DNA of 64,000 bases from Paenarthrobacter histidinolovorans (lineage in GTDB: Bacteria; Actinomycetota; Actinomycetes; Actinomycetales; Micrococcaceae): NCBI RefSeq assembly GCF_014647595.1, contig NZ_BMPM01000003.1, positions 434,001-498,000 on the forward strand. The letters run 5' to 3'. The notes beneath the pieces were generated by a model. That model was not told where the DNA came from, searched no databases, and worked only from the letters and a program-made list of their open reading frames with translations. The position numbers and the translations under genes were made by a program. Below, in pieces: positions 3,715-40,805 of the stretch; the first letter of the stretch is position 1, and each line of letters opens with the position of its first letter.

Positions 3715-4185
3715 CTACTCCAGGCCGGCCCGCGTTGCATCGTTGAGCGGAGTGCGCAGGGACATCGGCGCCGAGAGGTCGAATCGTCTCCCGGTTACTG
3801 AAGCCGGAACGATTCTGAAGAGGTGGTCCTGACCCACTCCCTGCCACGGGAAAAGGGCACGCCTGACCTCATCAAGTCGGGGGCCTTCAGACCCGGCGTC
3901 TTCAGCTGTGCCTTTGAGGACCACACTCCACGCAATCCCGAATTCTGCACTGACGGAGTCGGCCTCCATGGCCACTACGGGCTCATCCTCCATGGCCCAC
4001 TGTTTGGTCCCCGGCCCGGTCCTGAAAACCACTGTGTTGTTATCTACGGCGAAGTTCACGGGAAAGATATCCGGGTGACCATTGACGATCACAGAAAGCC
4101 GCCCGACGTTGGCCTCACCGAGGAGCCTCCAACAATCGTCCGATTCAAGTACTTCCGCCTCAGGCACTATGTTTTTGTCGGTCAT
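3715..4185 (-). CDS. Pyridoxamine 5'-phosphate oxidase-like split-barrel protein (copy 1)
   Basis: 156 aa, one of six paralogues in the island. The FMN-binding split barrel is recognised from the order: an N-terminal helix with CWRLLGEANVGRL, the strand motif HPDIFPVNF, FRTGPGTK, and AWSVVLKG. Relatives bind FMN, F420 or heme and act as redox enzymes or scavengers; cofactor and substrate here are unknown. It overlaps the upstream membrane-protein gene by 26 bp. A DosR-like palindrome at 4221..4234 lies 36 bp upstream, inside that gene, so it may also have its own promoter. Confidence 0.88.
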   Translation of the reverse strand: MTDKNIVPEAEVLESDDCWRLLGEANVGRLSVIVNGHPDIFPVNFAVDNNTVVFRTGPGTKQWAMEDEPVVAMEADSVSAEFGIAWSVVLKGTAEDAGSEGPRLDEVRRALFPWQGVGQDHLFRIVPASVTGRRFDLSAPMSLRTPLNDATRAGLE

Positions 4186-4672
4186 GGGGAGATCCTACGG
4201 CCGGTTCCCGGCCCCCAACAGGGCCCAAAGGCCCGAGTGATCCCAGAGCAGTACCTGCAGGCACCCGCGCGGCGACTCCCAGTAAGAGCAGGAGTAATCC
4301 CACTTCCGCCAACCCGGCTCCAAAGTAAACCGCTTGCAGTGCACTGAACGGAATCAGTGCCATTTGCACGAAGATCCAAACAAGGATGGAGTAGCCTGCC
4401 GCGGCAGCTGCCAAGGATGCGAAAGCACCCCGCCGAAGATGCAGGACGAAGGCCAGCCCATGCAGTCCTCCGACGACAACTGCCAACAGAAGACCCGGAA
4501 CCAGGTAGGTGCTGAAGGGCGATCCGCTCAGGTATTCCTCCGGGAGTTGAAGCTCGGGTGGAAAAGCGCTCCTGTCCACTCCCGGCCAGGATCCCACGGC
4601 CATGACCAGGCCGCCGGCAACTGATGTGACGGCAACCAGCCCCTGAACGATCAGAAGCATCACTCGAATCAT
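4160..4672 (-). CDS. Small four-helix membrane protein
   Basis: 170 aa with four predicted hydrophobic segments (about residues 5-28, 55-78, 84-110 and 115-140) and a Gly/Pro-rich cytoplasmic tail. I do not recognise the family. The start at 4672 has a strong GAGGAG Shine-Dalgarno. The last 26 bp overlap the next gene, and a candidate DosR-like operator sits in its 3' coding region. It lies between the P-type ATPase remnant and the PNPOx-like gene, so co-expression is likely, but no function is inferred. Confidence 0.7.
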   Translation of the reverse strand: MIRVMLLIVQGLVAVTSVAGGLVMAVGSWPGVDRSAFPPELQLPEEYLSGSPFSTYLVPGLLLAVVVGGLHGLAFVLHLRRGAFASLAAAAAGYSILVWIFVQMALIPFSALQAVYFGAGLAEVGLLLLLLGVAARVPAGTALGSLGPLGPVGGREPAVGSPHDRQKHSA

Positions 4673-4699
4673 CGTTCCTCCTCAATAGTGGTGTGTCGA

Positions 4700-5230
4700 C
4701 TAGATAATGGAGCGCCGAAAATGTTTGTCAGCGGCCACTGCAACGGACGCAACCAGACCCACACCCAGAATGCCGATCCACGCCTCGGGTGTAAGGGGCG
4801 CGGTGTGGAAAAGATAGTTCATGACCGGAACGTAGGTGATTGCTGCCTGCCCTGCGAGCTGGATCAGGACTCCAAATACCAACCAGCGGTTGCTGAAGGG
4901 CCGGAGTCTCCATACGGATTGGGTCAAAGACCGGCAGCTGAAGAGCAAAATCACGGAACTGTCGACGTACTCGCCCAGTAATACGGTTACGGTGGCTGCG
5001 GCAATCAGGACATAGATCAAGGGGTTGTTGAACTGACGGGCTGCTGAGCGCAGGAGGCTTTCGCGTTGGATACCAGGCAGTCGGTTGGGCCCATAAACCC
5101 CGGCGCGTTCGGACACTTCATTGGTAGTTAGCCCACGGGCTGCGTCGGCTTCGAGGAGCAGAACAACCTCGTGTGCCGGCAGGCCATGATGCGCCGCGTC
5201 CGTGGTGCCGTGGTTCAAAGCGCCTGCCAT
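4700..5230 (-). CDS. Internally deleted cation P-type ATPase (N- and C-terminal remnant)
   Basis: Only 176 aa where P2-type cation ATPases have about 850-900. Residues 1 to about 95 match the usual N-terminus and first two membrane helices (GLTTNEVSERAGVYGPNRLP, NNPLIYVLIAA, GEYVDSSVIL). From about residue 98 the protein jumps to the C-terminal membrane domain (CRSLTQSVWRL, FSNRWLVFGV, NYLFHTAPL). The actuator domain with TGES, the DKTG phosphorylation site and the nucleotide-binding domain are all missing, so it cannot pump. The deletion is in frame (junction near 4940-4950) and the ORF remains open in its operon. It may be a decaying gene or a small membrane protein with a new role. Confidence 0.85.
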   Translation of the reverse strand: MAGALNHGTTDAAHHGLPAHEVVLLLEADAARGLTTNEVSERAGVYGPNRLPGIQRESLLRSAARQFNNPLIYVLIAAATVTVLLGEYVDSSVILLFSCRSLTQSVWRLRPFSNRWLVFGVLIQLAGQAAITYVPVMNYLFHTAPLTPEAWIGILGVGLVASVAVAADKHFRRSII

Positions 5231-5233
5231 GCC

Positions 5234-6187
5234 CTAGCCAGCTAGCATGCGGTCGAGGGTCACCATGCGGTACCCGGCCATCTTGATCTCTTTGATGATG
5301 CCCGGCAACGCGTCAGCATCCAGGGTCGTGCCGTCTTCCGGATTGGAACCAATGTGCATCAGCACAATGGCACCGGGGCGTAGGCCGTCAACAACGCGCC
5401 GAAGGACCGTCTCCTGAGTAGCGCCACCGTTGGTTCCCTTCCAGCCGAGCGTGTCCACACTCCAGCGCACAGCAACATAGCCGAGCCTGTTGACGGTGGC
5501 GATGACCCGGGAATCCCGTTCGCCGAAGGGGAACCTGAAGAATGGCCGGGGATCGCCGCCGGCAGCGAGGACCGTCGCCTCAGCTCCGCGAATCTCCTCT
5601 GCGATCTGCGCATCCGTCAGCTCTGTGAAACCCTTATGACTCATGGAGTGGTTACCCAGCCGATGCCCTTCGGCGAGGATCCGGTCCACGCTCGCGCTGT
5701 TTGCCTGGGCCCAGTCCCCGGTGAGGAAGAACGTTGCCTTGACTTGCTCTGTTGAAAGGGTTGACAGAATGCTCGCCAAAGCCGCTGAGTTTGCCCCGGC
5801 GTCGAAGGTCAGCGCTACCTCGTTCCCCGCCCCCGGCAGTTCCTCAAGATCCCGTCCCAACAATGCCTCGGGCAGCGCTGCAACCGACGGTCCACCAGTT
5901 TCCGACTCACCAGGCTCAGGCCCAACGCTCGGCGATCCATCCGGCTCCGGTGAAACTGCCGACGCACTTGGTCCAGGTGAACGTGAATCCGTTGACGTTG
6001 TCGGCGTCATCATCGACGAGGCCGACGTTGTTGATACCGCTCCTGGTACCCCCTGTGGCTGCGTAGTGACCAAGAGTATGGCCCCTCCGGCCAGAATTAT
6101 CAGGGCGAGTAAAACCACGACGGCGACCACTCGCCGTCGTGCGCTTCTTTCCGACGCGGCGGCTGCTGCCGGCTCGGCGTCATTCAC
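5234..6187 (-). CDS. Membrane-anchored polysaccharide deacetylase (NodB domain)
   Basis: 317 aa. A basic cytoplasmic tail and one membrane helix (about residues 20-42) are followed by a Ser/Thr/Pro-rich linker to about residue 110 and then a NodB homology domain outside the cell. Catalytic motifs seen are TFDAGAN (usually TFDDG; the second Asp is Ala here), the metal-binding HSMSH, FRFPFGERD and LMHIGSN. Such enzymes remove N- or O-acetyl groups from peptidoglycan or other surface glycans. The Asp-to-Ala change is seen in some family members but could alter activity. Start is GTG in a GTGA overlap with the DUF4389 gene. Confidence 0.88.
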   Translation of the reverse strand: MNDAEPAAAAASERSARRRVVAVVVLLALIILAGGAILLVTTQPQGVPGAVSTTSASSMMTPTTSTDSRSPGPSASAVSPEPDGSPSVGPEPGESETGGPSVAALPEALLGRDLEELPGAGNEVALTFDAGANSAALASILSTLSTEQVKATFFLTGDWAQANSASVDRILAEGHRLGNHSMSHKGFTELTDAQIAEEIRGAEATVLAAGGDPRPFFRFPFGERDSRVIATVNRLGYVAVRWSVDTLGWKGTNGGATQETVLRRVVDGLRPGAIVLMHIGSNPEDGTTLDADALPGIIKEIKMAGYRMVTLDRMLAG

Positions 6188-7626
6188 GTCTGCCTGGCCG
6201 TCCCGTCAGTATGCGGGGGTTGCAGTGGCTCGGGATCGAAGGCGCCCTGATCCAGGCGGAACGGCGGATATTCGTCGCGGAGGAGGGCCCCGTAGATGAG
6301 CACTCGGTAGACCCAGCGATTGATGCCCATAATAAAGGCGAACAGGGGGCGCGGATAGCTGCCGGTGAACAAAAGGGTTAGCAGGGCGATGAGGACCAGC
6401 AGGCCCAGCAAGGACAGTCCTCCGCCGCGATCGTTGATCACACCGGCAGGTCCGTCCTGGGTTCTCCAAGCCCACGTCGCCGTTCCAGTGAACGCCCCCA
6501 CGATCAGCAGGTGCGGTATGAGCAGCAACCAGGACTTTATAAGAGCAAGGCCCCGGGAGAGGCGGGCCGGATAATCCACCTCCAGGTTCGCCGGGTAGTC
6601 CGTTCGGGAGAGACTGAACGGCGGATAGTGATCGGTCCCGCCTGCACCGTAGGTGTAGAAGGCCACGCGCCAAGTCCATCGGAGAACGCCCACATTGAAA
6701 TGGAACAGGGGAAGCGGGTAGCGCCCAGTGAAAAGGATGGCAAACCAGGCAATGATGCTGGTGACAGCGAACGCGAACCAGAGGAAAAACAGCACGAAGA
6801 AATGGGGGATGGCGAGGAACCACTTCACCAGCCACATCCACGGCGACAGAGCAGGGTCCAGCTGGCCGGTGAAATGAAGCGCCGAGCTCGTGGTGCCTGC
6901 CGATGCGCCGTGCCCTGCCGCAGATGTCGAAGGAAGCTGGCCGGAAGATCCTCCGCCGCGGCCCAGACCTACGGCGCCAAGCACCAACAGAGGAACGCCG
7001 ACGAGGATGGCCAGCACGCCGGCGGACAGCAGGCCCATTGCTGCCGGTTTGATGAGGTCGGAACGGAAACCGGCCTGCAGATCCGCGGAGACTCCGCTAC
7101 TGGCGTCAGTGTTCATCACCACCACCGTCCAATTGCCGGGCGCGATGTTCCAGGTGAGCTCTTGCTCACCCGGGCCGGAGGCTGATGCTGCCCAGAACTG
7201 CTGGGCACCGGGCGCTGCGGGGGTGGATGATCCCGGAACGTCCCTGTAAACCGGCCGGAAGGGTTGGAACTTCACTTCACGCAACTCGGTGTGGTGCACC
7301 CCGGCAAGGTACCCGTCCACTTCGTTTTGGGGTGCAATGCCGATGAACACTTCACGGCCGGCCTCCGTCGCAGTGGCCCTGAGCCTGAGGGTTCCGACGT
7401 CGAAGGGAAGCCTTTCGGGGGTGCCCTCGCCCACGGCATCGAGTTGGGGAGAGACCAACGCACGGGACGAAACCGTGTACCGCTCTGTCGGGGAGGTGAA
7501 GAAAGCTCCGTCATCCTGGGAAGAGGCGAACCATGCCCCCGCCGCACCCGCCGCTGCCATCGTGAAGCCGAGCAAAGAAAGCACTATACCGATTACAAGG
7601 AGGACGATATGACCTGGCTTTTTCAT
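6184..7626 (-). CDS. DUF4389 membrane protein (two DUF4389 repeats)
   Basis: About 480 aa from ATG 7626; the open frame extends upstream to 7986 but that part overlaps the permease gene and is not believable. A first helix (residues 8-32) precedes an extracytoplasmic domain of about 170 residues, a second helix near 200-225 and a Gly/Ser-rich linker. Two DUF4389 modules follow, each with helices ending in FTGRYPLPLF or FTGSYPRPLF and a Trp-rich segment. DUF4389 is of unknown function and common in actinobacteria. Position between an ABC-2 permease and a glycan deacetylase suggests an envelope role, which is inference. Confidence 0.85.
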   Translation of the reverse strand: MKKPGHIVLLVIGIVLSLLGFTMAAAGAAGAWFASSQDDGAFFTSPTERYTVSSRALVSPQLDAVGEGTPERLPFDVGTLRLRATATEAGREVFIGIAPQNEVDGYLAGVHHTELREVKFQPFRPVYRDVPGSSTPAAPGAQQFWAASASGPGEQELTWNIAPGNWTVVVMNTDASSGVSADLQAGFRSDLIKPAAMGLLSAGVLAILVGVPLLVLGAVGLGRGGGSSGQLPSTSAAGHGASAGTTSSALHFTGQLDPALSPWMWLVKWFLAIPHFFVLFFLWFAFAVTSIIAWFAILFTGRYPLPLFHFNVGVLRWTWRVAFYTYGAGGTDHYPPFSLSRTDYPANLEVDYPARLSRGLALIKSWLLLIPHLLIVGAFTGTATWAWRTQDGPAGVINDRGGGLSLLGLLVLIALLTLLFTGSYPRPLFAFIMGINRWVYRVLIYGALLRDEYPPFRLDQGAFDPEPLQPPHTDGTARQT

Positions 7627-7628
7627 GG

Positions 7629-8393
7629 CTACAGTTCTTTCCGGTTGAAGATCAGGGAAGCAACGCCGAGGGCCGCGGCAGCGGCAACAAGGCTTGTTAC
7701 TGACGGCCAAGCCGGAGAGACATGTTCCTGGCCAGCGGCAATCGCGGCTGCGATGCCTGGCACGCCTGACGGCCCGAACGTCGCGAGCGGGTCCCAGGCC
7801 GCGCCCACGGCCAGCAAAGCGTAGATCCCCAACCCTGTTCCAGCGGCCCCGGCGGCTGCCGGGATCAAAACCGAGAACAGCATGGTGTAGGACAGTGCCA
7901 GGAGGCCATGGATCAGGAGCAGGAACGCCGCGCCCCACAACTGCCCGGAAGGCGCGGTTCCGAAGGTCAAAAAGGTAACGAACCACGTGGTGAGGGTCCC
8001 CAGGGCAAACACCACCGTGATGAACATGGCATGGATGGATGCCTTCGCCGCTATGAAAGTGGCCCTTGAAACGGGTTTGCTGAGTACGAAGGCAGCGGTG
8101 CCGTCGCGGATCTCACTGGAAACCACTCCGCCGTACATGATGATGATGGTGAACAGGACGATTTGTGAGAGGTTCTTTATCCACTGCCCGTAAGCGTCAC
8201 TGAAGGTGGCATCCGGCAGCGCCAACGAACCGGGCGCAGACCCTGTCACGGAGCCTAAAAGCTCCGGAGTTATTTTTGCCAGGGGCGGCCCAACCACTGC
8301 GAAAAACATGACTATTGCGGGCAGCACCCAAATCCTCCACGTACGGAAGATTTCGTTGCCTTCCTTGGCTGCCAGAACTGTGAAAGTGCTCAC
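7629..8393 (-). CDS. ABC-2 family transporter permease
   Basis: 254 aa with six hydrophobic segments and the N-terminal cytoplasmic pattern AAKEGNEIFRTWRIW that is typical of ABC-2 permeases of the NosY/GldF kind. The GTG start overlaps the stop of the ATPase gene by four bases (GTGA), so the pair is translationally coupled. With the ATPase at 8390..9373 it forms a second ABC system in the run, possibly together with the DUF4389 protein. Substrate unknown. Confidence 0.88.
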   Translation of the reverse strand: MSTFTVLAAKEGNEIFRTWRIWVLPAIVMFFAVVGPPLAKITPELLGSVTGSAPGSLALPDATFSDAYGQWIKNLSQIVLFTIIIMYGGVVSSEIRDGTAAFVLSKPVSRATFIAAKASIHAMFITVVFALGTLTTWFVTFLTFGTAPSGQLWGAAFLLLIHGLLALSYTMLFSVLIPAAAGAAGTGLGIYALLAVGAAWDPLATFGPSGVPGIAAAIAAGQEHVSPAWPSVTSLVAAAAALGVASLIFNRKEL

Positions 8394-26306: not shown

Positions 26307-26767
26307 AAACAAAGCCAAGTGCCGCCGTCGAACGTCTGGCACCGGACGAATGCTGGGACCTGTTGGCGCAAACCAATGTTGGCCGCCTGGCCGTCCTGGT
26401 GGACGGACATCCCGATATCTTTCCAGTGAACTATGTGCTGGACGGTGACAGCATCGTGTTCCGAACCGGGGCGGGCACCAAGTTCTGGAGCACACTGACA
26501 ACCCCCTGCGCCCTGGAAAGCGATGGCTACGGGACCTTCAGCGGAAAGGCATGGAGTGTGGTTGTCCGAGGGCAAACGCACCTGATACTCGACCGGAAGG
26601 AAAGAGCCGACGTCGACTCCCTGGGACTGGATCCTTGGCAACCGGGCGCCAAGGACTGCTACCTGAGGCTAACTCCGAATGCCGTCACCGGACGGCGGTT
26701 CACAACCACCAGGCCAGATCTCTGGGGAACGCCCTTGAATGACGCCCGCCTGGGCGAATTCCAGTAA
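26303..26767 (+). CDS. Pyridoxamine 5'-phosphate oxidase-like split-barrel protein (copy 4)
   Basis: 154 aa. Motifs: CWDLLAQTNVGRLAVLVDG, HPDIFPVNYVLDGDS, FRTGAGTKFWS, AWSVVVRG and the C-terminal RLTPNAVTGRRF. It starts at the ATG overlapping the stop of copy 3; the longer frame from 26090 lies inside copy 3. Two adjacent, coupled but non-identical paralogues suggest a heteromer or division of labour, which is inference. Confidence 0.9.
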   Translation: MKTKPSAAVERLAPDECWDLLAQTNVGRLAVLVDGHPDIFPVNYVLDGDSIVFRTGAGTKFWSTLTTPCALESDGYGTFSGKAWSVVVRGQTHLILDRKERADVDSLGLDPWQPGAKDCYLRLTPNAVTGRRFTTTRPDLWGTPLNDARLGEFQ

Positions 26768-26816
26768 CACCCGCGCCCGGTGTTTCAGCCAGGCACAACA
26801 CGGACGGATCAACACT

Positions 26817-27884
26817 ATGAAGGCACTCGTCTACGGTGGCCCGGGCCAAAAATCCTGGACGGACGTTCCGGATCCCGTCATCCTGCACCCCACAGACGCA
26901 ATCGTGCGCATCGATACCACCACCATTTGCGGGACAGATCTGCACATCCTCAAAGGTGACGTCCCTGCGGTCCAGCCTGGACGCATCCTCGGGCACGAAG
27001 GGGTGGGGACCGTTACCGACGTTGGGAGTTCAGCCAGTTCACTCCGCCGGGGGGACAGAGTCATCATCTCCTGTATCAAGTCATGTGGGCATTGCGGCAA
27101 TTGCAGGAAGGGCTTGTTTTCGCATTGTCTCGGTGATGAAGGACAGCCTGGAACGGGCTGGATCTTCGGCCACCTCATCGACGGTACCCAGGCCGAATCC
27201 GTTCGGGTTCCCTATGCCGAGAACTCCCTGCACAAACTGCCCCACGGCGTGACCGACGACGAAGCGGTGATGCTCTCCGACATATTGCCCACGGCCTTCG
27301 AAATCGGAGTCCAGGCCGGGCACGTGTCCCCGGGTGACGTCGTGGCCATCGTAGGGGCTGGGCCGATAGGCCTCGCGGCCATGGCAACGGCCGGTCTCCA
27401 TGGTGCGGCAACGGTGGTGGCCATAGATCCAGACGAGGGCCGCCTGGCCAAGTCCCGCGAATTCGGAGCCACACACACGGTCAATCCCAGCAACCCCGAA
27501 TGGATTGCGGACGTTCTCGCCCTCACTGATGGCGCCGGGGTGGACGTGGCCATGGAAGCCGTCGGAGTGCCGGAGACTTTTGACATGGCCTTGCGCTTGG
27601 TCCGCCCTGGCGGGCACGTAGCCAACATCGGAGTTCACGGAAAGCCCGTCCAACTTCCGCTCCAGGATCTGTGGATTCAAAACATCAATATCAGCATGGG
27701 ACTGGTCAACACCAACACCACCCCGATGCTGCTTCGCCTGGTGGCTCAACACAAGCTCCCTGCGGACAAGTTCGCAACGCATCATTTCGGGCTTGAGCAG
27801 ATCATGGATGCCTATGACACGTTCTCGCGGGCGGCGGAAACAGGGGCACTGAAGGTGGTTCTCAGCCGAAGCCCTCATGACTGA
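26817..27884 (+). CDS. Zinc-dependent alcohol dehydrogenase
   Basis: 355 aa. Catalytic zinc ligands lie in TICGTDLHILKGD and GHEGVG; the structural site is CGHCGNCRKGLFSHC. A Rossmann motif (GAGPIGLAAM) and a cofactor loop starting IDPDEGR follow. The pattern is of the broad alcohol/sorbitol dehydrogenase group often annotated as isopropanol or propanol-preferring ADH; substrate open. It follows the PNPOx pair by 49 bp and its 3' end overlaps the next P-type ATPase gene by eight bases, so a four-gene unit is likely. NADH re-oxidation at low oxygen would fit its setting. Confidence 0.9.
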   Translation: MKALVYGGPGQKSWTDVPDPVILHPTDAIVRIDTTTICGTDLHILKGDVPAVQPGRILGHEGVGTVTDVGSSASSLRRGDRVIISCIKSCGHCGNCRKGLFSHCLGDEGQPGTGWIFGHLIDGTQAESVRVPYAENSLHKLPHGVTDDEAVMLSDILPTAFEIGVQAGHVSPGDVVAIVGAGPIGLAAMATAGLHGAATVVAIDPDEGRLAKSREFGATHTVNPSNPEWIADVLALTDGAGVDVAMEAVGVPETFDMALRLVRPGGHVANIGVHGKPVQLPLQDLWIQNINISMGLVNTNTTPMLLRLVAQHKLPADKFATHHFGLEQIMDAYDTFSRAAETGALKVVLSRSPHD

Positions 27885-29829
27885 ACCAGCGGACATGACA
27901 CAACGTCTGCTGCACTCGGCCTTGCGATTTCCATTAGTGGCAGCAAGCCTGGTGGTGCTCGCCACCGTCGCGGTCCTGGCAGTCATCGGACTCGTGCCGG
28001 CAGCGCAAGGGCTGGCGAGCATTTTTGCCCTCAGTGTCGCCCTCTACCGGGCCGGCACCATGATCAAAGGGCTCCTGCACGGACGCTGGGGCATAGACCT
28101 CTTGGCCGTAGTGGCCATTTGCTCAACTGTTGCAGTGGGGGAATACCTGGCATCCCTGATCGTGGTGTTGATGCTGACGGGTGGCGAAGCGCTGGAACAA
28201 TTTGCCCAAGGTCGCGCTACCAAAGAGCTCCGTGCACTCCTGGACCGGTCCCCACGGAACGCGCACCGGGAACGGTCTGGCCTGCCCGTGGAAGATATCC
28301 TGGTCGATGCCGTGGTCCCGGGAGACGTGCTGCTGGTCAGACCGTCAGAGTTGGTTCCGGTGGACGGTACCTTGCTGTCCGACGTCGGAATCTTTGACGA
28401 GTCAGCGCTGACGGGCGAAAGCCTGCCTGCTGAGCGAACCAAGGGTGAACTGCTGCTCAGCGGCTCGATCAACGGGGCCGATGCCGTGCGGATGAAGGCC
28501 ACGGCCACCGCAGCGCATTCCCAGTACAGCCAAATAGTTGCCTTGGTTCAGGAAGCTGCCGCGAGCCGCGCGCCGACGGTACGGCTTGCCGACAAATATG
28601 CAGTGCCGTTCACCTTGGTGGCCTTGGTGCTGGCGGGCGCTGCGTGGTTCTTCAGCCAGGATCCGGGACGGTTCGCTGAGGTTCTGGTGGTAGCCACCCC
28701 GTGCCCTTTGCTGATAGCCGCACCTGTCGCATTCCTGGCGGGGACCAGCCGGGCCGCACATGCCGGCATCATCATCAAGAACGCGGGGACGCTGGAGCAA
28801 CTCAGCAGGGTCAAGACCGCCGTCTTCGACAAGACCGGGACCCTCACCCAAGGCAACCCCTCCTTGGCCGGGATCCGGGTGGCCTCAGCCTCGGATCTGT
28901 CCGAAGACGCCCTGCTGCAGTTGGCCGCCTCCGCTGAGCAGTATTCCACGCACGTCCTGGCTGCTTCAGTCATCTCAGAAGCCCGAGCGCGCGGCCTGGC
29001 GCTGGTACCGGCAACGAGCGCGAGTGAACATGCAACCAACGGTGTCACGGCCGACTGCGGAAACCACCACATAGTGGTCGGAAAACCTGCTTATGTCAGT
29101 TCCCTGGTGAGCGGCTTCGACATGACGACACTGCCTGGAGGCCATCTCGGGATTTACATCGGGGTGGATGGCCGGTTTGCCGGCACTCTGATCATGAGCG
29201 ATCCATTGCGCCCCAATGCGAAGGACACCCTGACGGAACTTCGAAAGCTCGGGGTCGTGGAAACGATGCTCCTGACCGGAGACGCTGCAACGACAGCCCA
29301 ACACATCGCCGTGGAGGCTGGCATCAGCAACGTCATGGCCGAATGCCTGCCTGCTGACAAAGTTACTGCCGTAGCCGCGCTTCCGCTCAGGCCCGTGATG
29401 ATGGTTGGCGACGGCGTCAACGACGCTCCGGTACTGGCAGCGGCCGACGTCGGCATCGCCATGGGTGCCAAAGGCGCCACTGCGGCCAGCGAGTCGGCGG
29501 ACGTGGTGATTATGGTCGATGACCTCTCCAAGGCTGCGGTCGCGGTTGGCATCGGGCAGCGTACCCTTCGAATCGCGCGAACCAGCATTTGGACTGGCAT
29601 ACTGCTGAGCCTCGGCCTGATGGTGTTGGCCTCGCTTGGCATGATTCCGGCAGTCGCCGGGGCGCTGCTACAGGAGCTGGTGGATCTTGCCACCATTCTC
29701 AATGCCCTCAGGGCCTTGGGCCCCGGACGGTCCGCAGCATCGGTAGGATCCACGGCCGTCCACGCCGTCAGTACCGTTCCGGCTCATCACCAAGTTCAAA
29801 GTGGCGGCCGTGGACCCGGGTGGGAGTGA
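27877..29829 (+). CDS. P1B-type heavy-metal-translocating ATPase, TPCP subtype
   Basis: 650 aa, no N-terminal metal-binding domain. Motifs: actuator TGES, TPCP at 274-277 where Cu/Zn pumps have CPC, DKTGTLT with phospho-acceptor Asp318, GDGVNDAPVL, and a last-helix motif QELVDLATILNALR. TPCP together with a C-terminal QExxD...NALR motif is what I recall for the P1B-5 group (Ni/Fe-type exporters), many of which carry a C-terminal hemerythrin domain; none is present here. The tail after residue 630 overlaps the convergent PNPOx-like gene. ATG 27895 is an alternative start. Metal specificity is inference. Confidence 0.88.
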   Translation: MTEPADMTQRLLHSALRFPLVAASLVVLATVAVLAVIGLVPAAQGLASIFALSVALYRAGTMIKGLLHGRWGIDLLAVVAICSTVAVGEYLASLIVVLMLTGGEALEQFAQGRATKELRALLDRSPRNAHRERSGLPVEDILVDAVVPGDVLLVRPSELVPVDGTLLSDVGIFDESALTGESLPAERTKGELLLSGSINGADAVRMKATATAAHSQYSQIVALVQEAAASRAPTVRLADKYAVPFTLVALVLAGAAWFFSQDPGRFAEVLVVATPCPLLIAAPVAFLAGTSRAAHAGIIIKNAGTLEQLSRVKTAVFDKTGTLTQGNPSLAGIRVASASDLSEDALLQLAASAEQYSTHVLAASVISEARARGLALVPATSASEHATNGVTADCGNHHIVVGKPAYVSSLVSGFDMTTLPGGHLGIYIGVDGRFAGTLIMSDPLRPNAKDTLTELRKLGVVETMLLTGDAATTAQHIAVEAGISNVMAECLPADKVTAVAALPLRPVMMVGDGVNDAPVLAAADVGIAMGAKGATAASESADVVIMVDDLSKAAVAVGIGQRTLRIARTSIWTGILLSLGLMVLASLGMIPAVAGALLQELVDLATILNALRALGPGRSAASVGSTAVHAVSTVPAHHQVQSGGRGPGWE

Positions 29830-30190
29830 TCTCTACGTAGGTGTATTTTCGGGTCGGGATCCACGGCTTCAAGGGCAGCTTGTCCGCCTCGTCGATCTCC
29901 GATTGCGACTCGATCACCCTGGCAGTCCCCTTAAGGACAACACTCCAGGCTTCGGCGTCGTCGATTTCCTCCACTTCGAAAGCAACCTTCTCGTTAACGG
30001 TCAGTTCAGCGAGCTTCGTCCCCGGATTTGTCCTCAACAGCAGCCGCTGGTTGTGAGCGATGAAATTCAGTGGGTAGATGTCCGGCTCGCCCAGAACGCT
30101 GACAGCCAAACGACCATGCTGGTTACGCTCCAGGACCTTCCATGAGTCGGCTTCGGATAGGACGGTTCCGGGACGTTCGTCGGTTTCCAT
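29768..30190 (-). CDS. Pyridoxamine 5'-phosphate oxidase-like split-barrel protein (copy 5)
   Basis: 140 aa with an AGGAGAC Shine-Dalgarno. Motifs: SWKVLERNQHGRLAVSV, EPDIYPLNFIAHNQ, LRTNPGTKLAEL and AWSVVLKGTARV. The first Cys of the CW motif is Ser here. The gene converges on the metal ATPase and overlaps its last 62 bp. It diverges from pta across a region with two candidate operators. Confidence 0.88.
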   Translation of the reverse strand: METDERPGTVLSEADSWKVLERNQHGRLAVSVLGEPDIYPLNFIAHNQRLLLRTNPGTKLAELTVNEKVAFEVEEIDDAEAWSVVLKGTARVIESQSEIDEADKLPLKPWIPTRKYTYVEITPTRVHGRHFELGDEPERY

Positions 30191-30262
30191 GGTCTATGTC
30201 TCCTGCGTGGGGTGATTGGTTTCGATGTTCCCGAGCCTAAAGCTGGCTCCCTGCCGCCAACA

Positions 30263-30309
30263 GAGTCCAAGGTCCCGAGGGCGAAAGCAGCCATCATGAC
30301 CTTCGACTC
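30263..30309. promoter_or_regulatory. Paired DosR-like sites between PNPOx copy 5 and pta
   Basis: GAGTCCAAGGTCCC (30263..30276) matches the DosR core at 10 of 14. A site at 30296..30309, read on the minus strand as GAGTCGAAGGTCAT, differs at three bases from the USP site at 19164. Spacing is 33 bp, similar to the 32 bp of the 19132/19164 pair. Confidence 0.4.
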
Positions 30310-30374
30310 TGGTGTTGTGCGCCTAAGGGGTGGAACCTGTGAAGCATCGGATGATTTGCCCGGAGGGATACACC

Positions 30375-32450
30375 ATGGTCCAAGGCGTTTACGTTTTGTC
30401 CGTAGCACCGGAAGCCGGGAAGTCACTTGTGGTCTTGGGCCTGGCTGACGCGCTGCATCGCAGAACAGGTCGTCTCGGCTTCTACCGGCCAATCGTGAAC
30501 GGAACAGCTCCGGCCGACGACCCGCTACTCCGGATGCTTCAAAGGCTTTACAAGATGGAGCCAGCCCGCTGCAAGGGCGGAATGACCTTGGCCGATGCCC
30601 GGGCAGCACTGGCCGACGGCCGCGAAGACGAGATTGTTTCCCGGGTACTCGAGGATTTCGGGCACATCGCCGAAGAATGTGACGTTGTTGTGGTGGACGG
30701 TTCGGACCTGAGGGGACCGGACGCCGGGACTGAGTTTGAGCTGAACACGCTGCTTGCCACCAATCTTGGCCTGCCGGTCCTTGCCGTCATCGGCGCCCAA
30801 GGCCTGGGTCCCCGGGAAACCGCACAGGCTGTAGCCGACGCGTCACGGCAGCTCGCAGCAGCCAGAAGCACCGTCTTGTCCGTCGTGGTCAACCGTGCCC
30901 AGCCGGCAGACGTCGACGCAGCCCGGGAAGCGGTTGGGACCGCCACAGGAAGCCTGCCGGGCTATGTGATCCCCGAGGTTGCTGAAATATCGGCGCCCAC
31001 CATGGCCGATGTGGCCATGTCATTGGCGCTCGAACGGCTCTCGGGCAGCGCAGAGCTGGACCGGGACGTGAACGGCGTGAACGTGGCTGCGATGAACGTG
31101 GAGAACTTCCTGCGGGTACTCAAGCCCGGGAACCTGGTGATTGTTCCCGGGGATCGTACTGACATTGTCATGGCTTGCATGGCCTGGGCTTTGTCCCCTG
31201 AGTTGCCCACACCGTCCGGCGTCATCCTTACAGATGGCCTGGTCCCTGACAGTTACGTGCTGCCTTTGGTGGCACATGCGCCATTTCCTGTCTTCGTTGA
31301 AACTGCGGATGCCTGCACTGCGGCTCAACGGGTGTCGCACGTCCGCAGCGAAATCCACACGGGAGAAAGCCGCAGGGTGGCCGCGGCATTGGGAATCTGG
31401 GCCCGCTCCATCGACGAAACAGAGCTTCTGGAACGCTTGGCGCTTCCTCGTCCGGCCACGATGACTCCGCTGCGCTTCCTCAATGACCTCGTGGAGCGCG
31501 CCCGCCAGCAGAAAAAGCGCATCGTTCTGGCTGAGGGCACAGATAGCCGGGTGCTGCGTGCAGCCGAGATTCTGCGTCGCCGGGACGTTTGCCACGTGAC
31601 GCTTCTTGGGAACCCGTCGGCGGTCCGGGAGCTTGCCGACGCCGAGGGCATCGAGGTGGGAGGCATCACCATCATCGACCCCACCCAATCGCCATTACGT
31701 GAGCGTTTCGCGGTGGAGTATCAGCGATTACGGGCACACAAGGGCATGATCCTGGAACGGGCCAGGGAGGTCATGCTCGATGGTGCCTACTTTGGCACCA
31801 TGATGGTCCACCTGGGGGAGGCCGACGGAATGGTCTCCGGTGCGGCGCACACCACGGCCAACACGATCCGGCCCGCGTTGGAGTTCATGAAGAGCCAGCA
31901 TGGCAACGGACTGGTGTCCTCGGTGTTTTTCATGCTGTTTCCGGACCGCGTGCTGGTGTACGGGGATTGCGCCGTGGTGCCGGACCCCACGGACCGGCAA
32001 CTGGCGGACATCGCACTCGCATCGGCAGCGACGGCGGCGCAGTTCGGCGTCGAGCCAAGGGTGGCCATGTTGTCGTACTCTACTGGCGTATCCGGCGCCG
32101 GAACGGCGGTGGACAAGGTCAGGCGTGCCACAGAACTGGTCAGGGCCGGACGGCCAGACCTTGCTGTGGACGGGCCCATTCAGTACGACGCCGCTGTGGA
32201 TGCGGCTATCGCGAGTTCAAAGTTGCCATCTTCTGCTGTCGCGGGAAAAGCGACGGTCTTCATCTTCCCTGACCTGAACACAGGCAACAACACCTATAAG
32301 GCCGTGGAGCAGTCTTCCGGTGCTGTCGCCGTCGGGCCTGTTCTTCAGGGGCTCCGCAAACCCATCAACGACCTGTCCCGGGGATCGACGATCGAAGACA
32401 TCATCAACACTGTCGCCATCACCGCTGTCCAAGCGCAGGAGTTGAACTAG
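30375..32450 (+). CDS. pta: Phosphate acetyltransferase (long, regulated form)
   Basis: 691 aa. Converts acetyl-CoA + phosphate to acetyl-phosphate + CoA. The N-terminal 320 residues form a P-loop/BioD-like domain with a degenerate loop (SVAPEAGKS) and a DRTGG-like region; the C-terminal 330 residues are the PTA domain (VSGAAHTTANTIRPALEF; GPIQYDAA; IFPDLNTGN). This is the long class II form. ATG 30375 has a GGAGGG Shine-Dalgarno. Its partners ackA and phosphoketolase are 4.7 kb to the right, so acetyl-phosphate from either route can yield ATP. Confidence 0.93.
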   Translation: MVQGVYVLSVAPEAGKSLVVLGLADALHRRTGRLGFYRPIVNGTAPADDPLLRMLQRLYKMEPARCKGGMTLADARAALADGREDEIVSRVLEDFGHIAEECDVVVVDGSDLRGPDAGTEFELNTLLATNLGLPVLAVIGAQGLGPRETAQAVADASRQLAAARSTVLSVVVNRAQPADVDAAREAVGTATGSLPGYVIPEVAEISAPTMADVAMSLALERLSGSAELDRDVNGVNVAAMNVENFLRVLKPGNLVIVPGDRTDIVMACMAWALSPELPTPSGVILTDGLVPDSYVLPLVAHAPFPVFVETADACTAAQRVSHVRSEIHTGESRRVAAALGIWARSIDETELLERLALPRPATMTPLRFLNDLVERARQQKKRIVLAEGTDSRVLRAAEILRRRDVCHVTLLGNPSAVRELADAEGIEVGGITIIDPTQSPLRERFAVEYQRLRAHKGMILERAREVMLDGAYFGTMMVHLGEADGMVSGAAHTTANTIRPALEFMKSQHGNGLVSSVFFMLFPDRVLVYGDCAVVPDPTDRQLADIALASAATAAQFGVEPRVAMLSYSTGVSGAGTAVDKVRRATELVRAGRPDLAVDGPIQYDAAVDAAIASSKLPSSAVAGKATVFIFPDLNTGNNTYKAVEQSSGAVAVGPVLQGLRKPINDLSRGSTIEDIINTVAITAVQAQELN

Positions 32451-32905
32451 CCCTTTTCGTCCTGAGTGACCACCAGGACGGGGCATTGCGCGTGGGCCAC
32501 GCAAGCCCGGCTGACGGATCCCATGGGCTGATTGAGGAATCCGCCGGAGCCCCGCCGACCCACTACGAGCAGTTGCGCGCCGCGGCTTTCCTCGACGAGG
32601 ACCTTGGCTGGTTCACCGAACTTGACCGTCACGCTTAGGTCCTCGGGGCGGTCTGCACCGAAGGCTCGTTCCAAGGCCTCATCGACCAGCCGCGTGGCGG
32701 TGTTCTCCAATTCTGTGGTGAACCGCGTCAGTTCGGGCTCGAAACGCGAAGCCATGAAGTAGTCAGACATGCCCACACAGGTGATCACCTCAAGGGGGCC
32801 TTCCAAGGCGGCTGCCATGCGACCGGCCATCTGCAAGGTGTTGGAGGAATATTCGGATCCATCGACGCCGACAACGATCCGATCAGAGCGCGATTGTGTA
32901 TTCAT
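32447..32905 (-). CDS. Universal stress protein (single UspA domain)
   Basis: 152 aa from ATG 32905. The UspA fold runs from RIVVGVDGSEYS to the ATP-binding signature VVGRRGSGGFLNQPMGS. It ends SVSRACVAHAQCPVLVV, the same pattern as the two other single-domain USPs. Its stop overlaps the convergent pta stop by four bases. A candidate operator is 36 bp upstream. Confidence 0.92.
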   Translation of the reverse strand: MNTQSRSDRIVVGVDGSEYSSNTLQMAGRMAAALEGPLEVITCVGMSDYFMASRFEPELTRFTTELENTATRLVDEALERAFGADRPEDLSVTVKFGEPAKVLVEESRGAQLLVVGRRGSGGFLNQPMGSVSRACVAHAQCPVLVVTQDEKG

Positions 32906-32941
32906 GGGACCAGCCTGCTCTTCCACCGGGCAGCCCCACTA

Positions 32942-32955
32942 GGGGCGAAGGGCAC
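32942..32955. promoter_or_regulatory. DosR-like operator candidate upstream of a USP gene
   Basis: GGGGCGAAGGGCAC in the context CTAGGGGCGAAGGGCACGGAT. It is identical at 13 of 14 positions to the site at 35636, whose context (CTAGGGCCGAAGGGCACGG) is also shared, although the match to the mycobacterial core is only 9 of 14. It lies 36 bp before the USP start. Confidence 0.45.
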
Positions 32956-32972
32956 GGATCCGGCAAACTGCA

Positions 32973-35573
32973 TCACTGGGGCAGGGCGCCTCCGCGGCGC
33001 AGCCGTTTGTAGAGCCAGTCCGCTCCCAGCACGCCCGGAATCGCCAGGAGCGCAACGGCAAAGCCAGAGAGGGGAGGCGGCGCCTGCCCCAGGATGCCCG
33101 CAACGGGAGGTACGTAGAGGAACAGAGCCAAGGCCGCCAGTTCCACCCCTACCGCCCACAACAAGAGACGGTTGGTGGACCAGCCCTGCTTCCACGCAGG
33201 GGCCGTCGCACTGCGGCATGCGAACGCGGTTGCCAATTGGCCAAGGACAACTGCCGTGAAGGCAGACCCTGACGCGCCCATCAGGACTCCCGGGTCCAAC
33301 GGATCTCCGCGGCTCCACCCGCTGCCAAAGAGAACCACAGAGAAGGCGCACATGGCGAACAACGCCTCCGTCGGACCCATCACCACAAACACCCTCAGCA
33401 TGAGTTGCCGATCCAGGAGATGCCTCTTCTCGGGAGGCCGGCTCAACACCCGTTTACCCGGTGGCTCCGCCCCGAGGGCCAACGCGGGAAGCAGATCGGT
33501 TCCAATGTCCAACGCCAATATTTGGAGGACGCCGAGGGCCAACGGGAATTGACCACCGGAAAGTGCCCAGATAACGAAGGGCGTGAGTTCAGCGACATTG
33601 TCTGTCAGGTGATACGTGAGGAACCGGTGAATATTCGAATACGTGGCCCGGCCCTGTTCTATGGCGGCGACGATGGTGGCGAAATGGTCGTCCAGGAGCA
33701 CAAGGTCTGCGGCCTCACGGGCTACATCGGTTCCGCTGAGCCCCATGGCCACCCCGATATCAGCTTGTCGTAAAGCGGGACCGTCGTTGACGCCGTCGCC
33801 AGTCATGGCAACAACGTGGCCGCGGCTCTGCAAGGCTTTTGCCACTCTGAGTTTCTGTTCGGGGGATACCCGGCTCACCACCACTCCATCGCGGTCCAGG
33901 AGGGCTCCGAGGACTTGCTCATCGTGGGGGAGGTCCGCGCCTTGAAAGACCAGGTCCGGGTGCCCCAGCAGCCCGATTTCCCGTGCAATTGCCGCTGCTG
34001 TGGAGGGGTGGTCGCCGGTGATCATCGCAATGCGGATTCCCGCACCCCTGGCGGTTTTGATGACATCAGCCACGTCCGGCCGGGGTGGGTCATGGAGGCC
34101 AATGAGGCCTATTCCTTCGAGATTCCGCTCAGCCTCGTCCGCGGGCCGGTTGCGCCAACTGCCGGCTGCTCCAGGCAGTTCCCTCGTGGCGACGGCAATG
34201 ACGCGCAGGCCTTTGGCAGCCATGGTTTCTACTTCTTGGGACATATGAGCGGCTTCGGCTCCACAGAGGGGGAGGACGGATTCCGGGGCTCCCTTCAAGT
34301 AGAGGGTATTGCCCACGATCACCGATTCTCTTCGACGGTCGGCGTCGAAGGCGAACCGTACCGAGGGCTTGAGATCCTCTGGCTCACTCCCCACAACGCG
34401 TCGTGCCAAAGTGTCGATCGCTGCCTCCATGGGATCCCCGTTTGCCACCCATTCATCGCCGTGAAGCACTGCGCGTCCCTGCGAAGCGGCCCGAGCTGCA
34501 CAAGCCACCCGGATCGCGTCCGGCAGTCCTGGACCTTCCACCAGGGCTTTGGGCTCGTAGCCCTCACCTCTGATGTATAGCGGCCCCTCCAAAGTGAAGA
34601 CCTCGACGGCGTTCATCCGGTTTTGCGTCAACGTTCCGGTCTTGTCGGTGCAAATGAAGGTAGTGGAACCCAATGTCTCCACCGCTTCGAGGTTGCGGAC
34701 GAGTGCGTTCCGGGAAGCCATCCGCTGCGCGCCCATGGCCAGCGACAGGGTCACAGTGGGCAGTAGGCCCTCGGGAATAAGCGCAACCGCAACCCCAATG
34801 GCAAAGAGAAAGGAATCACGCCACACAATTCCGACGAGGAGCGAGACCACGAAGAACAGCCCCGCGACGGCGAGCGCCACTGTGGCCACCAGGCGTACTA
34901 TTCTGCGCAGCTCCATGGTCAAAGGAGTTGGCGGAGATGTGGTGCCGCTGGTCAGCGCTGCGATGGCAGCCAGCTTGGTGTTGGCCCCGGTGGCTGTTAC
35001 CAGCCCTTCCGCTTCGCCATTGACCAGGAACGTGCCGCCCCACGCTGTGTCCGTCGCGGATTTGGGTACGGCCTCGCTCTCACCGGTGAGCATGGATTCA
35101 TCCACACTGCATGCTGACGTCGAGACGAATTGCACGTCTGCCGGCAACCTGTCGCCTGCGGTCAGGACCACCACGTCTCCGGGTACCAAAGCACTTGCAT
35201 GCACGCTCTGAAGCCGCCCATCCCGCCGGACAGTGACGTCGGCCGGGAGCAGTCCTTGTAATCGTTCGGCAGCGTGTTGGGCGCGTTCTTGTTGAATGTG
35301 GGCGAAAACGCCGTTGACGATCACCACGATGATGATTGCTATGCCCAGTTGTGGCATCCCTGCCACGTAGGCGAGTCCTGCTGCGACCCACAGCATCAGG
35401 GCAAAGAAGTGCGTCAGTTCACCCAGCAGCTTCCGCCATTGGGGGACCTTCTTGGCGGTGGGCAGTATGTTTGGTCCGGCGCTTTGCAGCAATTCGCTGG
35501 CGACACGCGAAGTCAGGCCCTTGGCGCCCGGGGTCTCGGACAGCGAGGCCGGAGGTGTGTTCCCGATGGACAT
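32973..35573 (-). CDS. P2-type cation-transporting P-type ATPase
   Basis: 866 aa from ATG 35573, which has a GGAGAG Shine-Dalgarno. Motifs in order: actuator TGESEAVP, FICTDKTGTLTQNRM with phospho-acceptor Asp310, TGDHPSTA, GDGVNDGPALRQADIG, then four to six C-terminal helices. Layout fits Ca2+/Mn2+-type or CtpF-like pumps; CtpF (Rv1997) is a member of the mycobacterial DosR regulon, which agrees with the two candidate operators upstream. The N-terminal domain is shortened. Ion specificity cannot be read from the sequence. Confidence 0.9.
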   Translation of the reverse strand: MSIGNTPPASLSETPGAKGLTSRVASELLQSAGPNILPTAKKVPQWRKLLGELTHFFALMLWVAAGLAYVAGMPQLGIAIIIVVIVNGVFAHIQQERAQHAAERLQGLLPADVTVRRDGRLQSVHASALVPGDVVVLTAGDRLPADVQFVSTSACSVDESMLTGESEAVPKSATDTAWGGTFLVNGEAEGLVTATGANTKLAAIAALTSGTTSPPTPLTMELRRIVRLVATVALAVAGLFFVVSLLVGIVWRDSFLFAIGVAVALIPEGLLPTVTLSLAMGAQRMASRNALVRNLEAVETLGSTTFICTDKTGTLTQNRMNAVEVFTLEGPLYIRGEGYEPKALVEGPGLPDAIRVACAARAASQGRAVLHGDEWVANGDPMEAAIDTLARRVVGSEPEDLKPSVRFAFDADRRRESVIVGNTLYLKGAPESVLPLCGAEAAHMSQEVETMAAKGLRVIAVATRELPGAAGSWRNRPADEAERNLEGIGLIGLHDPPRPDVADVIKTARGAGIRIAMITGDHPSTAAAIAREIGLLGHPDLVFQGADLPHDEQVLGALLDRDGVVVSRVSPEQKLRVAKALQSRGHVVAMTGDGVNDGPALRQADIGVAMGLSGTDVAREAADLVLLDDHFATIVAAIEQGRATYSNIHRFLTYHLTDNVAELTPFVIWALSGGQFPLALGVLQILALDIGTDLLPALALGAEPPGKRVLSRPPEKRHLLDRQLMLRVFVVMGPTEALFAMCAFSVVLFGSGWSRGDPLDPGVLMGASGSAFTAVVLGQLATAFACRSATAPAWKQGWSTNRLLLWAVGVELAALALFLYVPPVAGILGQAPPPLSGFAVALLAIPGVLGADWLYKRLRRGGALPQ

Positions 35574-35635
35574 CTTCTCTCCAATGTGGGATGCCTGTTC
35601 GATGAAAGACTCCACCGGGGAACTGCCCGCGTCTA

Positions 35636-35673
35636 GGGCCGAAGGGCACGGTTGAGGGAAGGACCTTCTGCCC
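35636..35673. promoter_or_regulatory. Paired DosR-like sites in a divergent promoter
   Basis: GGGCCGAAGGGCAC (35636..35649) and AGGACCTTCTGCCC (35660..35673), spaced 24 bp as in the PEP synthase promoter. Each matches the mycobacterial core at only 9 of 14, but the first matches the local consensus well. They lie between the P2 ATPase start (35573) and the PNPOx copy 6 start (35709). Confidence 0.42.
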
Positions 35674-35708
35674 TATATGTGCGTAGCCGGAAGGGATAGG
35701 CTCGGGCC

Positions 35709-36206
35709 ATGGAGAACACATCGACGGATCAGGACACCAAGGAACTCAGCGTCCACGACTGCTGGAAGTACCTTCAATCGGTGTCCATTGGCAGGATCGC
35801 CCTCGTTCACGGTGACGTACCGGAGATCTTCCCGGTGAACTTCGTCCCGAACTACGGAACTGTTCTCTTAAGGACCGGACCGGGGACCAAACTCGATGCC
35901 CTTCGTGAAGGAGCGGTCATTGCCTTGGAAGCCGATGGCTTCAACCGATACGGAACCGTCGCGTGGAGCGTCATCCTCAAGGGGAGCCCGGAATTCGTCA
36001 CGCAGCCCGAAGACATCCAGGAGGCGGTGGAGGCTGGCTTGTCCCCTTGGCAGCCCGGCGCCAAGGATGTCTTGGTCAGGGTTACGCCCACGGAGATCAG
36101 CGGTCGCCGGTTCGTCATCAGCCCGCCGTCCAAGTGGTGGCCGCCGCTGGATCCATCCGCTGCTGAGCGAGACGCTTCTGAAGGGGTCGACGCCGGAACT
36201 CAGTAG
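35709..36206 (+). CDS. Pyridoxamine 5'-phosphate oxidase-like split-barrel protein (copy 6)
   Basis: 165 aa. Motifs: CWKYLQSVSIGRIALVHGD, PEIFPVNFVPNYG, LRTGPGTKLDAL, AWSVILKGSPEF and VRVTPTEISGRRF. The C-terminus has about ten extra acidic residues compared with the other copies. It is divergent from the P2 ATPase and its 3' end overlaps the convergent tandem USP by seven bases. Confidence 0.9.
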   Translation: MENTSTDQDTKELSVHDCWKYLQSVSIGRIALVHGDVPEIFPVNFVPNYGTVLLRTGPGTKLDALREGAVIALEADGFNRYGTVAWSVILKGSPEFVTQPEDIQEAVEAGLSPWQPGAKDVLVRVTPTEISGRRFVISPPSKWWPPLDPSAAERDASEGVDAGTQ

Positions 36207-37027
36207 GTGCCGCCCGCCACGTCCCGGTGGGGTCGGGTGAGGATGGTGGGGCACTGCACGTGCAGGAGCACATGCTGGGCAACGGATCCCAGCAGCACGC
36301 TCAGACCTCCCCGGCCCTTGCAGCCCATGACCAGCAGCTGCGCTTCTCTGGCCGCAACTATCAGTGCTTCTCCGGGGCCACAGCTCGTATCCAGTACTTC
36401 CTTCACGACGACGGCCGGGAACTTCTGGTTGACCCGCTGAACAGCCGAGCTGAGGACATTCCCGTCGTCGACAAGACGGGCCTCCGGACCTGTTGCGTGA
36501 ACAATGATCAATTCATCATCCAAACGTTGAGCCTCCCTGGCCGCTTGGTCCAGGGCATCGAGTGACTCAGCGGAGCCGTCAACGCCAACCACAACGCCGG
36601 AACGCTGTTGGGGTGCCGGCCCCGGGACAACGGCGACATCGCACTTGCTGGTCACAGCAACCTGGAAACTGACCGAGCCGTATCCCTGCCCTTCAGTCCC
36701 GGGTCCGCGGTCCGTGCCCACCACCACCATCGAGCAGGCCGGTGACAAGTCCGCGATTGTTTCGGCAGGTTCGCCGGACAGTCGTTTCGTATCAATGGGC
36801 AGCGTTGGAAAGGCTACAGCCAAGCGTCCTGCTTCGCTGTTAAGCAGATCATCAGCCCGCCTCACCGCCAGTTGATGATCATTCTGCTGGGGATAGGCCC
36901 ACTCGCCCGGCACAACATGCACGATGGTCAGGCCAAGGCCAAGGGAGCTGGCGCAGGCAGCGGCCCAGTCGGCAACATGCCCGCTCCACCGGGAACCGTC
37001 AAGGGCAACCAGGATCTGTTTCTTCAC
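36200..37027 (-). CDS. Tandem-domain universal stress protein
   Basis: About 275 aa from GTG 37027, chosen because an AAGGGA Shine-Dalgarno precedes it and QILVALDGSRWS starts the first USP strand; the TTG at 37096 would overlap the operator. Two UspA domains (about 1-135 and 140-272). The second has a near-complete ATP signature (VMGCKGRGGLSVLLGS, one residue short); the first is degenerate (VVGTDRGPGTEGQGYGS). Divergent from ackA with a shared candidate operator. Confidence 0.9.
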   Translation of the reverse strand: MKKQILVALDGSRWSGHVADWAAACASSLGLGLTIVHVVPGEWAYPQQNDHQLAVRRADDLLNSEAGRLAVAFPTLPIDTKRLSGEPAETIADLSPACSMVVVGTDRGPGTEGQGYGSVSFQVAVTSKCDVAVVPGPAPQQRSGVVVGVDGSAESLDALDQAAREAQRLDDELIIVHATGPEARLVDDGNVLSSAVQRVNQKFPAVVVKEVLDTSCGPGEALIVAAREAQLLVMGCKGRGGLSVLLGSVAQHVLLHVQCPTILTRPHRDVAGGTY

Positions 37028-37096
37028 GAACCGACGTCCCTTCGGAGTGCCAACTGTGGTGGACTCCACTATCGGTGGGACAAGCCGCCGTCGCAA

Positions 37097-37110
37097 GGGC
37101 CGGAAGGCCC
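37097..37110. promoter_or_regulatory. DosR-like operator between the tandem USP and ackA
   Basis: GGGCCGGAAGGCCC is nearly a perfect palindrome and matches the DosR core at 10 of 14 positions. It lies 69 bp from the USP start and 79 bp from ackA, so one site could serve both promoters. Confidence 0.48.
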
Positions 37111-37189
37111 TCCCACTGAGCGGCCCGGTGCGTTAGGGTCCACAGCAGAGCCATCGATCGTAGCTTGCCCACGGAAGTGAGAGGAGATC

Positions 37190-38341: not shown

Positions 38342-38348
38342 CCGCGAC

Positions 38349-40766: not shown

Positions 40767-40805
40767 GCCGTGGGTCTCTGTGTGGCGAAAAGGGACGGAT
40801 CCGGC

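Follow-up and report, generated by a model that had tools for sequence, protein, structure and literature searches.

A reverse-strand open reading frame at positions 4700–5230 of the window, by which we mean the whole 64,000-nucleotide stretch of the Paenarthrobacter histidinolovorans genome analysed here, encodes the two ends of a P-type ATPase and not the part between them. This raises the question of whether its product is a small membrane protein that persists in a role of its own, for example as a decoy or subunit of another pump, as the first-pass annotation of this DNA proposed, or whether the gene is dead. The analysis reported below argues that it is very probably a P2 ATPase gene, calcium-pump-like in type, that a single internal deletion of 2193 bp has inactivated, and on the best reading this deletion is fairly recent and struck a dispensable gene.

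The remnant and its deletion junction

The frame runs over 176 codons, from an ATG start to a TAG stop, and is identified as what an in-frame internal deletion has left of a P2-type cation-transporting ATPase gene by comparison with intact, syntenic 907/908-aa orthologues in two relatives, Paenarthrobacter aurescens TC1 and G080, a species that belongs to the same genus. Pfam detects Cation_ATPase_N at residues 15–81 (E = 1.7e-17), the second half of Cation_ATPase_C at residues 80–170 (E = 7.2e-19) and no further domain in the remnant. With the membrane helices numbered M1 to M10 according to G080 hydropathy and the established P2 ATPase plan of ten helices, codons 1–95 (4946–5230, reverse strand; Cation_ATPase_N) correspond to the cytoplasmic N-terminus, M1 and the first half of M2, at 84% identity to residues 1–95 of the G080 protein, and codons 96–176 plus the stop codon (4700–4945, reverse strand; Cation_ATPase_C) correspond to the cytoplasmic end of M8, M9 and M10, at 81% identity to its final 81 residues. 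Both Pfam and the G080 alignment therefore bear out the initial description of a P-type ATPase cut down to its ends by an in-frame deletion; the two helices that had been assigned to residues 1–95 along with the N-terminus come down to M1 and only half of M2.

Alignment to the intact G080 orthologue places the junction between 4946 and 4945, at a codon boundary after nucleotide 285 of the frame (after codon 95) and within the interval of 4940–4950 estimated earlier, and this is the sole placement with minimum mismatch; against TC1 there are three equally good placements, all within 3 nt. Relative to G080, 2193 nt or 731 codons, about four fifths of the gene, are missing, in line with the first estimate of about 700 residues. 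The missing part contains the actuator loop TGES (G080 position 177), the M4 motif PEGLP (293), the phosphorylation motif DKTGT (336), GDPTE (417) and the hinge motif TGDGVNDAP (646), so that both the catalytic and the ion-site motifs are lost. The loss of TGES and DKTG had been recognized from the outset, and both TGES and DKTGT are indeed present in G080 and absent from the remnant. Thus, the homology of both ends and the shared operon position make this gene a P2-type ATPase by descent, while DKTGT, TGES, PEGLP and TGDGVNDAP, the marks of a functional one, are all absent; an intact orthologue in relatives together with the loss of essential domains identifies it as a deletion pseudogene.

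A microhomology- or repeat-mediated deletion was considered and rejected, given that the junction is unique against G080, that no microhomology was found at the bases flanking it in the same comparison, and that none of the five direct-repeat families of at least 12 nt in G080 joins the breakpoints. The deletion could have arisen via end-joining without homology, with the frame presumably kept by chance; since one deletion in three would do so, the in-frame outcome needs no explaining, and it was perhaps helped by sparing the genes behind from polar effects.

The lack of repeats also bears on the suggestion that the deletion is an artefact of draft assembly and that the organism has the full gene. 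The assembly is indeed a draft of 23 contigs; however, with neither a repeat nor microhomology at the breakpoints for an assembler to collapse, misassembly by repeat collapse is unlikely. Moreover, the intact 907-aa protein used as a query finds one match at E ≤ 1e-100 in the window's own assembly (G000) among the matches listed, and its E value of 1.2e-118 has the strength of 39–41% paralogues in other genomes, so that the assembly shows no near-identical copy of the missing part at another place. Only two weak paralogues are found there with the remnant as the query, and we give an assembly artefact almost no credence.

The operon spacing, which had been described as tight and preserved, is so on the upstream side only. 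The gap to the gene for PDA, a polysaccharide-deacetylase-domain protein (5234–6187, reverse strand; PF01522, E = 1.2e-29), measures 3 nt in the window and TC1 and 2 nt in G080, whereas the gap to the downstream gene for MP170, a 170-aa hydrophobic protein (4160–4672, reverse strand), measures 27 nt in the window (4673–4699, reverse strand) vs. 8 nt in G080 and TC1. By eye, the 3' end of the ATPase gene appears to be repeated in this gap, as a diverged copy of 19 nt by which the gap would have grown from 8 to 27 nt; the apparent tandem duplication (4673–4720) provides the current stop codon.

Membrane topology of the remnant

Three helices are clear in the remnant by hydropathy: M1 (residues 71–89), M9 (116–134) and M10 (149–167). 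A fourth, composed of the halves of M2 and M8, would lie between M1 and M9 if the remnant were kept as a small membrane protein that serves another P-type ATPase as decoy or subunit, by binding or modulating it; we consider this reading quite improbable. According to the ten-helix plan, M2 and M8 of P2 ATPases cross the membrane in the same direction, so such a fused helix is topologically allowed, which favors retention. The hybrid segment is, however, weakly hydrophobic, its best 19-residue window reaching a hydropathy of 0.88 vs. 1.74 for M2 and 1.59 for M8 in G080, and a fourth membrane helix is for this reason doubtful. We rely on this directed comparison because the initial hydropathy scan, which reported three helices in the remnant, detected nine of the ten in intact G080 and missed M2, making it an unfair test. 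Run on the remnant with nine full-length orthologues, AlphaFold2 returned a mean pLDDT of 50.2 and a pTM of 0.24, and the intact G080 protein, run as a control on a similarly shallow alignment, returned 39.7 and 0.30. As the intact control was poor too, neither run is informative on folding.

Search for the same architecture in other genomes

Orthologues with the same deletion, which the first-pass annotation had suggested looking for, were found in neither the 206 genomes of the genus nor a sample of 395 genomes of the family. In the genus set, 39 genomes match the remnant protein at E ≤ 1e-15, and a single match spanning residues 1–176 in a short frame occurs only in the window's own genome, the remaining 38 matching in the N-terminal part, the C-terminal part, or both as separate pieces. 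A DNA search with the locus in the same 206 genomes likewise gave an unbroken match nowhere but in the window's own genome. In the family sample 22 genomes match at E ≤ 1e-18, with no second case of a whole 1–176 match, and a plasmid collection contained no match to the remnant. That no second genome with this architecture was found in these searches counts against a retained product.

Shortened or broken frames of other kinds do occur in the genus, in G196 (196 codons), G009 (205 and 204) and G017 (585 and 570); the ATPase gene of G131 is split over two contig ends, and that of G026 has an internal stop. Short frames were also observed at paralogue-level matches in G009 (G009:C17) and G053. 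A short N-terminal match within a 254-codon frame of G240, from another genus, was rejected as a second reduced ATPase; the match belongs to another ATPase, whose sequence is spread over two adjacent frames.

Repeated loss of the pump gene from the operon

MP170 lies directly behind the ATPase in G080, TC1, G188, G066 and G042, and in G080 and TC1 the intact pump stands between PDA and MP170. With the operon defined by genes for a DUF4389 protein, MP170 or its end, and a PNPOx-like protein, in that order, we found it in nine species, four with an intact ATPase (G080, TC1, which is G152, G188 and G066) and five without (the window, G196, G023, G147 and G179). These nine are among 21 genomes with an MP170 match. 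Four others were inspected as well: in G042 the ATPase before MP170 is intact, in G121 PDA precedes MP170 and a 14-kb stretch holds no ATPase match, and the stretch inspected in G168 and G093 contains MP170 but none of the other operon genes. The operon count leaves out the eight weaker MP170 matches (G149, G178, G142, G134, G015, G028, G120 and G166).

In G196 the deletion extends from the deacetylase gene's end and has left approximately the last 185 ATPase residues, in an open frame of 191 codons that overruns the start of the next gene. G023 and G147 have lost the deacetylase and the ATPase save for a scar with the final ATPase codons, which in G147 ends in an early stop, and G179 has lost the deacetylase, the ATPase and most of MP170. 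One older event may underlie the losses in G023, G147 and G179, and we therefore set the number of independent losses of the operon ATPase at three or more. The species tree, which includes a paralogous PPDK for G179 and is without that of TC1, served as a rough guide only. Outside these nine species, in another lineage of the gene, G009 carries an internal deletion joining residues 317 to 774, plus frame changes. The open C-terminal fragment that G196 has kept independently speaks for a retained membrane protein, whereas the mere scars, or nothing at all, in G023, G147 and G179 speak against one.

It is also conceivable, although unlikely in our estimate, that the in-frame deletion was spread by selection against polarity and that the remnant is a translated spacer without protein function, a reading that is compatible with gene inactivation and not exclusive of it. 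The survival of the start, the frame and the operon position would agree with this, as would the open MP170, PNPOx and ABC frames behind the remnant in the window. Nevertheless, the genes directly behind persist both in G147, in which the scar stops early, and in G196, in which the fragment runs over the next gene's start, and the distance to MP170 is itself altered in the window.

The ABC genes of the operon show changes of their own. In G080 (L107:6159–7795) an ABC-2 permease gene that follows the PNPOx-like gene is broken into a part that ends early (7268–7795) and a part that is joined to coding sequence unlike the window permease (6159–7271). In G023, G147 and G179 (L108, L109 and L135) the ABC ATPase/permease pair beside the universal-stress gene is largely gone, with ~66 residues still matching in G023, ~34 in G147 and only a weak ATPase match in G179. 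The loss of this pair in the three genomes indicates that erosion of the operon is not confined to a single site.

Selection and sequence damage

Rates of dN/dS were estimated with our own implementation of a codon model for five taxa on a fixed tree, using codons present in all of them (160 of the 176 for the joined ends). For the joined ends, dN/dS is 0.253 on the window branch, which pools the time before and after the deletion, vs. 0.106 elsewhere (LRT 4.75, 1 df), and the model rejects dN/dS = 1 for the branch as a whole (LRT 10.5). The comparison had been put forward at the outset as a check on persistence; the ratio proved mildly raised and below 1, and does not point to clear constraint. 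When the parts are taken separately, the C-terminal part has 0.346 vs. 0.089 (LRT 4.78), with dN/dS = 1 not rejected (LRT 2.34), and the N-terminal part 0.183 vs. 0.117 (LRT 0.72), with dN/dS = 1 rejected (LRT 10.05). Intact genes of the same operon identified by Pfam as universal-stress and flavodoxin-like are similarly raised on the window branch (0.214 vs. 0.084, LRT 5.30), so the rise in the remnant is not specific, and the PNPOx, PDA, MP170 and DUF4389 genes show no significant change there (LRT 0.16 to 1.23).

A whole-branch value below 1 can be read in favor of a retained protein, as can the low value of the G196 fragment (0.067 on its branch vs. 0.049 elsewhere). The latter may equally mean that dN/dS over a whole branch is a poor guide to the period following a deletion; either the measure is uninformative here or, less likely, C-terminal fragments are kept. 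Were they kept, the fusion in the window and the G196 fragment would be two independent reductions to a small membrane protein acting on another cation pump, and the C-terminal helices of this pump would be worth keeping alone, but we regard this as very improbable indeed.

The remnant has broken 1 of 45 conserved columns in the N-terminal part and 3 of 39 in the C-terminal part, against 0–6 and 0–7, respectively, in intact orthologues, of which only 2 of 23 (G066 and G170) have three or more broken columns in the C-terminal part. The count draws on 23 of 24 orthologues, G109 being left out because no frame passed the motif filter (a 1023-codon open frame is found there), and the column set includes G026, which is without most of the C-terminal part. 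So little damage, in an open frame with its start kept, supports retention and counts against a dead gene, but it suits a recent deletion just as well. Taken together, dN/dS and column damage fit equally a deletion that is recent relative to the G080 split and weak retention.

Fate of the gene and other pumps in the window

The window carries three further P-type ATPase genes, each with TGES, DKTGT and GDGxND (27877–29829, 32973–35615 and 40770–43481). To a retained membrane protein they would offer possible partners; equally, with several pumps at hand the loss of one is easy to accept, and they may be the reason why the pump is dispensable here. The window also contains genes for pyruvate phosphate dikinase, alcohol dehydrogenase, phosphate acetyltransferase, acetate kinase and phosphoketolase, and the stretch 26739–43481, in which the three pump genes lie amid the last four of these functions, resembles an anoxia-survival cluster.

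Cumulatively, our findings lend no positive support to a persisting decoy or subunit, considering the architecture seen in no other genome searched, the varied losses, the weak hybrid helix and the dN/dS values, and favor inactivation of the pump gene by deletion. With its start and operon position intact, the remnant may still be translated into a fragment that would be unable to pump and would probably be degraded or inert. Gene loss by internal deletion is commonplace and there is little new in the mechanism; the locus nonetheless shows clearly how one operon gene has disappeared repeatedly inside a single genus, and it cautions that a remnant need not be functional even if it is in frame and its whole-branch dN/dS is low. 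Its annotation as a 176-aa "cation-transporting P-type ATPase" would mislead.

Comparison with known systems

Among the closest known systems are the P2-type calcium-transporting ATPases of the PMR1/SPCA type. The closest solved structure to the intact G080 orthologue is calcium-transporting ATPase type 2C member 1 (ATP2C1; PDB 8iww), matched over residues 16–898 at E = 2.8e-162, and its best model is TIGR01522, at 657.7 bits; as this lies under the cut-off of 798.3, the transported ion is not proven. The remnant has its best matches to the same model and the same structures, and differs from these pumps in being without the actuator core, the phosphorylation and nucleotide domains, M3–M7, half of M2 and half of M8. 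Our literature search found no paper joining P-type ATPase with truncation.

The intact pump is presumably akin to the mycobacterial CtpF group. One report describes CtpF as a calcium P-type ATPase and a ctpF deletion mutant of Mycobacterium tuberculosis in which transcription of other P2 ATPase genes is increased (PMC9180918). For the present genome, the response of M. tuberculosis may serve as an analogy and not as evidence.

Small membrane regulators of P-type ATPases include phospholamban, sarcolipin and MgtR, and the remnant resembles them in being small, probably membrane-bound, and encoded in a genome with P-type pumps. They are, however, dedicated short peptides and not pump relics, and the remnant differs from them further in showing no sign of conservation or of a partner. 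Also comparable are the deletion remnants that G196, G023, G147 and G179 carry at this locus, which derive from the same gene and operon by large deletions, and the broken homologue in G009, in which a large deletion affects the same gene in another lineage. Their breakpoints are different, and it is the window copy alone in which the two ends of the pump are joined in a single in-frame fusion.
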